33,873 nucleotides of DNA from Gammaproteobacteria bacterium. GTDB taxonomy: Bacteria; Pseudomonadota; Gammaproteobacteria; SZUA-229. The DNA is taken from assembly GCA_029881275.1 (NCBI GenBank), contig JAOUMX010000008.1, positions 1 through 33,873 of the forward strand. The letters run 5' to 3'. The notes under the pieces are model-generated. The model saw only the letters and a list, made by a program, of their open reading frames with translations. It had not been told where the DNA came from and did not search any database. The number at the start of each line of letters is the position of its first letter. Position 1 is the stretch's first letter. Below are positions 4,853 to 17,209 of the stretch, piece after piece. The translations under genes were made by a program, and so were the position numbers.

Positions 4853-4929
4853 TGGCGCGCCTGGCAGGACTCGAACCTGCTACCCTCGGCTTAGAAGGCC
4901 GATGCTCTATCCGGATGAGCTACAGGCGC
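4853..4929 (-). tRNA. tRNA-Arg (anticodon TCT)
   Basis: Reverse complement GCGCCTGTAGCTCATCCGGATAGAGCATCGGCCTTCTAAGCCGAGGGTAGCAGGTTCGAGTCCTGCCAGGCGCGCCA; loop CTTCTAA. Confidence 0.95.
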
Positions 4930-4986
4930 AGAATCTCTTAACTCGTCCTGCCGACATCTACACTCATTAGTGATGAATATAGAAGA

Positions 4987-5148
4987 AATTTGGTCGGGGT
5001 AGAGAGATTACAAAGTACATCCCGTACTTTGCCCTTCGGGCCGTGCTACACACGTTCAAAATCGCTCCCGGCGATTTTGTCGAACTCTATCGTTCGCCTC
5101 TCTCTACTAAGTCCCTTACACCGAATCACATACCTGTGAGTCAGTTAA
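4987..5148 (-). repeat. 162-bp tRNA-Pro-tail-containing unit with three internal hairpins
   Basis: 23-bp direct repeat AATTTGGTCGGGGTAGAGAGATT at 4987-5009 and 5149-5171 (the second is the 3' end of intact tRNA-Pro); hairpins 5012-5030, 5031-5041 and 5057-5079; closing stem GTAGAGAGA 4999-5007 / TCTCTCTAC 5099-5107. Confidence 0.8.
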
Positions 5149-5152
5149 AATT

Positions 5153-5229
5153 TGGTCGGGGTAGAGAGATTCGAACTCCCGACATCCTGCTCCCAAAGCA
5201 GGCGCGCTACCAGACTGCGCTATACCCCG
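5153..5229 (-). tRNA. tRNA-Pro (anticodon TGG)
   Basis: Reverse complement CGGGGTATAGCGCAGTCTGGTAGCGCGCCTGCTTTGGGAGCAGGATGTCGGGAGTTCGAATCTCTCTACCCCGACCA; loop TTTGGGA. Confidence 0.95.
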
Positions 5230-5392
5230 AAATCACTTGCAAAAACTCGCTATCGCAAGAAGATGCGGATATTACTTGGGTCAGTGGTCAAGGTCAACTA
5301 TCAGTGCATGCTAATCTGCATCACCTGACCCTTGTCGTCGCCCTACTGACCGTGCGAAAATCCCCCGCCTTCATTGACAGGAATTTTACATC

Positions 5393-11953: not shown

Positions 11954-13270
11954 ATGTCTCATCAGATTCCTAAAGTTGGTTTTATCAGTCTTGGCTGCCC
12001 AAAGGCACTGGTAGACTCGGAACAGATCATTACTCGACTCAGAGCCGAAGGCTACGAAATCAGCCCGAGCTATGATGGCGCCGATCTGGTGGTGGTGAAT
12101 ACCTGTGGTTTTATTGATGACGCAGTAGAAGAATCACTGGAAGCCATTGGTGAAGCGCTGAATGAAAATGGCAAGGTCATTGTCACCGGCTGCCTCGGCG
12201 CCAAGGGCGATATCGTTGCCAACAATTACCCACAGGTACTGGCTGTGACCGGCCCCCATGCTGCTCAGGAAGTCATGGAAGCAGTACATCAGCACCTGCC
12301 ACCACAGCATGATCCTTACATTAGCCTGATTCCACCACAGGGTATCAAGCTAACGCCAAAACATTATGCCTATTTAAAAATATCCGAAGGCTGTAATCAC
12401 CGTTGTACCTTCTGCATTATCCCATCACTCAGAGGTGACCTGGTCAGTCGTCCCATCGGTGAAGTGCTCAGCGAAGCAGAAAACCTGGTCAATGCCGGAG
12501 TTAAAGAGTTACTGGTCATATCTCAGGATACCAGCGCCTATGGTGTCGATGCCAGATACCAGACTGATTTCTGGCAGGGCAAACCGGTAAAAACCCGATT
12601 TGAAAATCTGGCGAAAGAACTGGGTGACATGGATGCCTGGATACGCATGCACTACGTCTACCCCTACCCCCATGTCGACAACGTTATTCCATTAATGGCC
12701 GAAGGAAAGATTCTGCCTTATCTGGATATACCCTTTCAGCATGCCAGCCCAAATGTATTAAAAGCCATGAAACGCCCGGCCAGTAGCGAAAACAATCTGC
12801 AGCGTATCAAGGGCTGGCGTAATATCTGCCCGGACATCACCATCCGCAGCACCTTTATTGTCGGCTTCCCTGGCGAAACCGAAGATGACTTTAGCGAACT
12901 ACTCGACTTTATTAATGATGCCGAACTGGATCGTGTCGGCTGCTTCACCTATTCACCGGTGGAAGGTGCTGTCGCCAATGAAATTAACCAGCAGATTCCG
13001 GAAGACATCAAACAGGAACGCCTGGAGCGATTCATGACATTACAGGCAGAGATCAGCGCAAACAAGTTATCTAAAAAAATAGGCCAGACCCTGCAGGTAA
13101 TTGTCGATGAAGTTGATGAAGAAGGGGTTATTGCGCGCAGCATGGCGGATGCACCGGAGATAGACGGTATGGTATTTATCGACAATTGCCAGTCATACGA
13201 GCCAGGCACATTCATAAATGTTAGAATTACCGACTCAAACGAACACGATTTATTTGCAGAAGAAATCTAA
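11954..13270 (+). CDS. rimO: Ribosomal protein uS12 methylthiotransferase RimO
   Basis: Radical SAM/MTTase: [38 protein letters not shown]-terminal TRAM region. Confidence 0.97.
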
Positions 13271-16582: not shown

Positions 16583-17209
16583 GTTTCGCCCTTTCTGGGC
16601 GAGTTCATTTCTTTTGCCCGTGCAAAAGAAACCGAACCAAAGAAAACACGCCCCAGATCACAAGCCACCATGCAAACAACGCATGGCAGTGCCCTCGTCA
16701 CTCGCAATTGATGAGGCTGCTGCGGAACTCACGAATTAAAAAGCCAATTCGCTCAGACATCCTCGCAGAAAGCCCCTCATAAATTACTCCCACCTCAGCT
16801 TGCTCAATGGAGGAATCAAAATCAAAAGCGCTCCTTATCTGTCATTGCGAGGTACGAAGCAATTTAAGCTGTTAAACCTGAAATTGCTTAGCTGCGCTCG
16901 CAATGACAAATATAAACAACCGTGCGCAGCACACAACGCCTTTGACCCTCCACCCCTTCACAGTTTGCCGAGCATTGATTCCCGGCAGGGGCAATTTGCC
17001 ATGGACGGCAAATTGAGTTTTGTTGAGCCACGACGGCGAATCAAAACGACCCGACAACGAAGCCAGCACAGCATAAACTTGTAATAACATTCAAAACAGC
17101 AAGTGACCAATGCTCGGGCACCCGCAGGGCAAACTGTCTTGGGACGGCGTTTTCTTGCCTACTTCTTTGTCGCTGTTGACAAAGAAGTAGGTCGCCAGAG
17201 AGGCGAAAC
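16583..17209. repeat. Noncoding island of nested imperfect inverted repeats
   Basis: Left arm 16583-16655 and right arm 17141-17209 are divergent inverted copies, each with two hairpins; inner pairs CAGTTTGCC 16961-16969 / GGCAAACTG 17128-17136 and CCGAGCATTG 16968-16977 / CAATGCTCGG 17108-17117; hairpin CAATTTGCC-ATGGAC-GGCAAATTG 16992-17015. Confidence 0.75.
16840..16908. repeat. 69-bp imperfect palindrome (TGTCATTGCGAG...CTCGCAATGACA)
   Basis: tgtcattgcgaggtacgaagcaattt...aaattgcttagctgcgctcgcaatgaca. Confidence 0.9.

Follow-up and report, generated by a model that had tools for sequence, protein, structure and literature searches.

The repeat unit beside tRNA-Pro

The window, by which we mean the whole stretch of 33,873 nts analysed here, carries an intact tRNA-Pro(TGG) gene on the minus strand at 5153-5229 (ARAGORN; Rfam tRNA 68.5 bits). 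On its 3' side lies a 162-nt unit, also on the minus strand, whose terminus is an exact copy of nts 58-76 of this tRNA-Pro(UGG), from A58 to the CCA. A preliminary description of this DNA had reported a tail duplication at 4987-5009 and 5149-5171, the second of them forming the 3' terminus of an intact tRNA-Pro, and a unit that follows the tRNA and ends with its own CCA. All of this is borne out on the minus strand, and the duplication is exact and slightly longer than claimed (24 nts, 4986-5009 and 5148-5171). Chance falls far short of accounting for 19-24 nts of a tRNA tail being repeated exactly next to the tRNA itself.

Reading the minus strand from the tRNA (nts 58-76 at 5153-5171), the CCA is followed by AATTT (5148-5152), five nts common to the distal copy that the repeat and the flank comparison identify as lineage-specific native flank within the local duplication. 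Then comes a new 40-nt spacer (5108-5147) to which the native flank has no match (proximal score 19.0, shuffled mean 20.6). At 5092-5107 the T arm and acceptor 3' strand recur in inverted orientation as GTAGAGAGAGGCGAAC, as a comparison of GTAGAGAGA GG CGAAC with the reverse complement of the tRNA, GTAGAGAGATTCGAAC, shows. By pairing, this arm holds the 5' strand of the outer stem P1 (5099-5107) and the 5' strand of the next helix, GCGAAC/GTTCG(A), inside 5080-5096. After a short loop, GTTCGA (5080-5085) is the 5' half of the T-loop up to A58, as the sequence and the family-wide alignment indicate, and it stands ahead of a core module (C...GT, 5010-5079) that is set into the T-loop between A58 and A59 (alignment; 86.1 bits with our own model R1, whose training set includes the window). 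Four hairpins lie between GTTCGA (5085-5080) and the distal tail (5009-4991): hairpin 1, perfect, with the GGA loop CGGGA (5057-5079); hairpin 2, CGTGT-GTA-GCACG, from the alignment and the fold (5042-5054); GCCC-GAA-GGGC within GGCCCGAAGGGC, from the search pattern and alignment A1 (5031-5041); and hairpin 3, perfect, AAAGTAC-GGGAT-GTACTTT, again with a GGA loop (5012-5030). The distal copy of tRNA nts 58-76, AATCTCTCTACCCCGACCA (4991-5009), provides the 3' strand of the outer stem and, according to the repeat, the tail rule and the flank comparison, runs on into the native downstream flank, which begins with AATTT (4986-4990).

Three perfect hairpins and an outer stem (4999-5007 with 5099-5107) had been described earlier, and all are present where they had been placed. 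The helices at 5042-5054 and within 5080-5096 are additions to that description, as are the link to RtT RNA, the T-loop site of the core, and the recognition that the 5' strand of the outer stem is an inverted T arm. "Cloverleaf-like" is a loose term: the outer stem mimics the T stem and part of the acceptor, and D and anticodon arms are absent.

The next gene of the operon is tRNA-Arg(TCT) (4853-4929, minus strand, ARAGORN), followed by tRNAs for His, Lys and Leu. Upstream of tRNA-Pro there is a promoter-like site on the minus strand at 5269-5297 (TTGACC, 17 nts, TAATAT) with 9/12 consensus matches, where shuffled sequence would be expected to give about one such site by chance; several relatives have a similar TTGACC...TAATAT stretch 5' of tRNA-Pro. 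A search of the minus strand from tRNA-Pro to tRNA-Arg for a terminator-like site found none. With Arg, His, Lys and Leu following, this places the unit inside a tRNA operon, and in combination with the promoter-like site it means that the unit should be read through as part of a Pro-Arg-His-Lys-Leu transcript.

Fold, covariation and relation to RtT RNA

For 4987-5148 on the minus strand the folding energy is -61.8 kcal/mol, compared to -41.2 in shuffled sequences (z -5.66, with 0/200 shuffles as good), and the closed 121-nt unit has a folding z of -5.61. The preliminary description had asked for covariation, which is present and strong in the core hairpins. In 55 cores aligned by MAFFT alone, the covariation score is 0.478 compared to 0.131 for shuffled alignments and at most 0.107 for slid structures, and there are 258 double-changed cells compared to 82. 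The consensus structure behind these values was set by hand after viewing the alignment, guided by the fold of the window, and the sequences in both the covariation and the loop statistics are related, not phylogenetically independent. RNAalifold unaided finds helices 1 and 2 for the most part, and helix 4 in part. The invariance of the GGCCCGAAGGGC hairpin in alignment A1 is imposed by the search pattern and is uninformative.

The loops of hairpins 1 and 3 vary together. Amongst the 55 cores, 36 have GGA in both loops, 17 in neither and 2 are mixed (Fisher 2.5e-12, a value that overstates independence since the sequences are related); one mixed unit, L086, reads GGGGG. In a looser set of units the co-occurrence is weaker and in the same direction (3e-5). 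Many hairpin-3 loops are CAGGAUG or ACAGGGAUGU. Both loop classes can occur in one genome, as in Alteromonas KUL42 (L051 and L085).

The Rfam RtT model (RF00391) aligns to the window unit over its full length (1-130) at a lax threshold with 21.2 bits, where the gathering score is 45, and by covariance score alone the unit is not a member of that family. It shares with RtT the same-strand site 3' of a tRNA gene and in its predicted transcription unit, a terminus identical to the 3' 19 nts of the host tRNA including CCA, and a homologous core. Elsewhere in the same genome two tandem units with a tRNA-Gln-like tail score 38.7 and 28.4 bits; the gene 3' of them is one that we take to be a putative prs. 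The four tRNA-Tyr units of L025, which lie outside the R1 training set, have Rfam RtT scores of 129-136 bits and R1 E-values of 2e-8 to 8e-11. The RtT-scored L025, L046, L048, L087 and L139 are all recovered by R1, and only L046 amongst them is in its training set. Since R1, built from window-type units, recovers untrained tRNA-Tyr units that Rfam itself scores, homology of the core with RtT is supported, and judged from these sequence scores the window unit appears homologous to RtT yet more divergent.

The tyrT repeats of E. coli were discovered decades ago, and no agreed function or origin is known for them. Sequence similar to a tRNA-Arg unit (the query included some tRNA-flanking sequence) is found in 5395/5426 E. 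coli genomes at a median of 3 places, and amongst the matches listed the sole annotation is tRNA-Arg. RNAs of the RtT kind have been detected by Northern and sequencing in A. pleuropneumoniae (PMC4986893), and that article cites reports that the E. coli RtT RNA is released from a tRNA precursor and affects the stringent response. On a contig from a viral collection, L139 has three RtT units with a tRNA-Lys-like tail (12216-12644, minus strand), which may be a prophage flank. We also tried the COG3610-DE RNA (RF03066) and rejected it, as its 14.6 bits against 73.5 is chance level.

Copies, tails and insertion at the T-loop

The pattern GGCCCGAAGGGC-N10-30-GTAATC-N12-CCA is present in 9/274 genomes of the class (0 for a reversed control) and in at least 116 stretches of genome contigs. 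It has 142 matches, some at overlapping loci, and 118 of them have a same-strand ARAGORN tRNA upstream; the other 24 are mostly near the edge of the stretch examined. The preliminary description had asked whether copies sit at tRNA 3' ends with tails matching each host. They do: 104 of the 118 have a 19-nt tail identical to that of the upstream tRNA. AATC, CCA and the 19-nt maximum are set by the search pattern, and the test consists of the 12 free positions. Full 19-nt matches involve Arg, Ser, Gln, Pro, Lys, Tyr, Glu and Val tRNAs, and an Asp case matches over 17 nts.

Using R1 at an E-value of 0.001, we find the core in at least 165/369 genomes of the class, about 45% of the sampled Gammaproteobacteria; with 12 candidates scored per genome, the survey counts are lower bounds. 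At 0.0001, R1 has matches in 63/299 genomes of the phylum, including one family outside the class in which units are likewise found behind Ser, Asp and Gln tRNAs. The training on GTTCGA...GTAATC units biases R1 to tRNA-type copies. Amongst 37 further matches taken from the score-ranked matches listed (L234-L270), about half have a tRNA directly upstream and a few have one just downstream; the rest have none within the set limits, several of them still with a tRNA-like tail. The genome of the window (G000) has further copies with a different, Asp-like tail at C107 and a mirror-type copy ahead of tRNA-Gln at C229. At the C107 contig end (L197, C107:1-370) the units are tandem and a spacer contains a terminator-like hairpin. 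The breaks of contigs C107, C192 and C229 all fall within or next to units of this kind.

The 5' arm of the units resembles the reverse complement of the host tRNA T arm. In some units the inverted arm extends into the variable loop (L133 Ser, 19/19; L012 Arg, 20/21) and in others into the acceptor; in the window unit it pairs with the duplicated tail over 9 bp. At a fixed place, 30/98 units have a 5/5 complement to their own T-stem compared to about 0.1% for other tails (Wilcoxon p 3e-8, or 0.002 with one unit per T-stem class). At that place the remaining 68/98 fall short of 5/5, and units of the Ser class, whose T stem is CCCTC, are off that register with 0/16 at 4 or more. The register of the inverted arm varies between units. 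A blunter test of arm-tail complementarity that we had used earlier placed 30/98 units above the 95th percentile, and we do not use it as support.

Within the taxonomic order, unit-free tRNA-Pro loci exist beside filled ones (in G398, G407, G384, G371, G408, G402, G403, G404, G386 and others), and these empty sites carry one tRNA-Pro. We compared the native flank of an empty site with the two flanks of a filled one in two same-genus pairs. For the window and G398, a single genus-mate that is 72% complete and of moderate similarity, the native flank resembles the distal flank (47.5) and not the proximal one (19.0, shuffle maximum 33.5). For G409 and G407 the values are 91, 21 and 36. In the window and G409 loci, exactly five lineage-specific nts past the CCA appear in both copies. 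As the native flank follows the distal tail and not the tRNA in both pairs, the comparison shows, on the evidence of these alignments, an insertion at the tRNA-Pro T-loop that duplicated the local tRNA tail and five nts. Other filled and empty pairs that we compared are cross-genus or uninformative. In G381 both flanks resemble the native flank of a relative, which is a tandem-duplication pattern and implies more than one route.

Mirror units also occur. In G415, G397, G411 and G391, nts 1-59 of tRNA-Pro are followed by a core, a stretch starting AATCTCTCTAC or close to it, and an intact tRNA-Pro; G387 has a matching tRNA-Pro 1-59 fragment too. Tandem cores within a single unit (G401, G400, G373) place the boundaries of the module at C...GTA, between A58 and A59. 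On the minus strand of L200 (1-330), another mirror-type arrangement has a degenerate 5' part of tRNA-Gln, a core with extra hairpins, AATCCTCC-TTGA-GGGAGGAT, and the start of an intact tRNA-Gln at the contig end. Fragments resembling the 5' part of tRNA-Pro (CGGGGTATAGCGCAGTC... and similar) are seen upstream of tRNA-Pro in L223, L226 and L232, and those in L223 are tandem with a period of about 90 nts.

Near-identical dispersed copies away from tRNAs, with no clear orientation to neighbouring genes, are found in G122, G343 and G300. The module being found also outside tRNA genes argues for a dispersing structured repeat that prefers T-loops, and not for a decayed tRNA. In the genome of the window, tRNA-free tandem cores of about 80 bp lie directly 3' of a ccmB-like gene (L198/L022, G000 C9:9253-9420, minus strand).

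Competing explanations and known systems

The reading that we hold to be the probable one is that of an RtT-type tRNA-tail repeat nested in the T-loop: a structured module that disperses, is transcribed in a tRNA operon and probably yields a released RtT-like RNA. Both the insertion and the structure are well supported. Beyond the observed anatomy, covariation, homology, operon position and contrast with empty sites, we infer a copying mechanism with its enzyme, the release of a transcript, a purpose of the inverted arm and a cellular role. A copying event would put a hairpin core of roughly 70-85 nts at A58|A59 of the tRNA-Pro T-loop; the same event would leave the tRNA intact, add the new spacer and the inverted T-arm, and duplicate the local tail (nts 58-76) with five nts of flank. 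At the palindromic TTCGAA of the T-loop a template switch could go in either orientation, which would account for the inverted arm as well as for the two mirror types. Within the operon transcript, the inverted arm and the duplicated tail would pair, closing the RNA so that it ends in a T/acceptor-like stem plus CCA. This closure probably stops the extra tail from mispairing with tRNA-Pro, and tRNA 3' processing would probably release an RtT-like RNA ending in CCA. The preliminary description had offered a mobile or amplifying tail element or, instead, a structured tRNA-linked RNA. Both halves gain support, the element from being multi-copy, tandem and inserted relative to empty sites, and the RNA, still a candidate, from strong covariation and homology to RtT.

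Several other origins could leave a copied tRNA tail. A decayed second tRNA-Pro gene would explain why the tail copy carries a CCA, but the covarying core is unrelated to tRNA nts 1-57, units recur at other tRNAs and empty sites have a single tRNA-Pro; recurrence, covariation and empty sites refute this origin in its simple form, and we regard it as extremely improbable. The preliminary description had set against its own reading a single-copy sequence without covariation next to a decayed tRNA, and the unit is instead multi-copy and covarying, with a tail that is not simply a decayed tRNA. An attL/attR scar, or the remnant of an integrative element at the T-loop, comes closer in geometry, as the duplication from T-loop to 3' end and the displaced native tail are those of a tyrosine integrase. 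Here it is the same compact core that recurs across many genomes and tRNA isotypes, the duplicated five nts are local and not carried in, and a mirror type with a 5' duplication exists; there is no integrase beside the unit, and the repeats are 162 nts apart with no ORF of 80 aa or more between them. Recurrence, covariation and empty sites rule out a simple att scar, and the wider version is improbable. A purely DNA-level dispersed palindromic repeat (REP/BIME-like), moved as single-stranded hairpins, with T-loops as favoured and tolerated targets and no RNA role, is unlikely. The near-identical copies off tRNAs and their lack of clear sense bias would fit it, and so would a reported rtT-like similarity among BIMEs (PMC2965389). 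A Y1 transposase (PF01797) is in 25/29 genomes with cores compared to 12/27 without (p 0.0016, 56 genomes, with genome size and lineage uncontrolled). This domain has 0 matches in G000 itself, however, against 25 of the 28 other core-rich genomes. G-U pairs are rarer in well-aligned core stems than in tRNAs (4/267 compared to 317/5513, p 0.001), a fragile result, as the G-U fraction shifts under looser parsing and pair-type tests disagree between parsings. The detection of RtT-kind RNAs in A. pleuropneumoniae (PMC4986893) speaks against a repeat that acts as DNA only.

The GGA loops suggest a role as CsrA/RsmA decoy, in which hairpins 1 and 3 would bind a CsrA dimer and tRNA operons would release decoys coupling translation capacity to Csr control. 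The unit has GGA in two hairpin loops, the near all-or-none pattern is as in CsrA-binding hairpins, and the CAGGAUG and ACAGGGAUGU loops match the CsrB repeat and the CsrA SELEX consensus. csrA is present in most genomes with such units, in the genus-mate G398 and in 19/25 genomes of the family, and the sharing of a genome by both loop classes in Alteromonas KUL42 is also compatible with decoys. On the other side, a search for csrA in the assembly that holds the window found none (possibly an assembly gap), G196 (98% complete) has no csrA match over the cut-off, and the enterobacterial units that we read lack GGA though CsrA is present. Presence of csrA fails to separate the GGA and non-GGA loop classes, and the families of Rfam clan CL00106 (CsrB/CsrC/RsmX/Y/Z, TwoAYGGAY) have no match to the unit. 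We rate the decoy as unlikely on this balance, and the CsrA link as a lead, unproven. csrA does lie within about 1 kb of units in G328, G227, G062, G133, G250, G126, G311 and G285, a proximity owed only to csrA-tRNA-Ser-tRNA-Arg synteny. Elsewhere in the window, a long intergenic stretch with repeats and hairpins includes a TwoAYGGAY RNA (RF01731, CsrA-binding clan) at 16986-17057 on the plus strand, with 43.8 bits against a gathering score of 43. Doubtful as it is, a combined view can be stated in which a widespread class of structured repeats would nest in tRNA T-loops by a copying that regenerates the tRNA, the inverted T-arm locks the duplicated tail, and in many lineages the products are CsrA/RsmA decoys. 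If true, tRNA output would be linked to carbon-storage regulation.

A core site in the T-loop (A58|A59) with a host-matching inverted T-arm, the duplication of the tail and five nts together with its mirror case, and the near all-or-none GGA loops appear to be undescribed. Searches of the open-licence literature turned up neither T-loop nesting nor a link to CsrA, an absence that is weak evidence. For the T-loop-nested repeat of the RtT kind, its spread across about 45% of the Gammaproteobacteria sampled, the presence of empty as well as filled sites within one genus, mirrors and two loop classes make origin and function testable, including the route by which an insert arrives at a single precise position in essential tRNA genes and the possible binding of the RNA to a regulator such as CsrA.

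Amongst known systems, tRNA-targeting integrative elements share with the unit the direct repeat of a tRNA 3' end, the intact tRNA and the displaced native tail; the unit differs in its core of about 70-85 nts free of integrase or cargo and in the mirror-type 5' duplications. REP/BIME repeats with their Y1 transposases are, like the core, short dispersed hairpin modules, multi-copy and partly tandem. What sets the core apart is T-loop targeting with a matching tail and inverted arm, in a genome without PF01797. CsrB/CsrC/RsmX/Y/Z and TwoAYGGAY also present GGA in hairpin loops more than once per molecule, whereas the unit has a fixed four-hairpin core and a tRNA-operon site, and its CsrA binding is only putative. 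RtT differs in the host tRNA, and the window unit falls below its gathering score, has a wide non-enteric range of kin and carries GGA loops in hairpins 1 and 3 unlike the enteric RtT units that we read. With RtT the unit shares its place 3' of a same-strand tRNA, the last 19 nts of the host tRNA with CCA at its end, a core with GGCCCGAAGGGC and GTAATC, and tandem copies at some loci.
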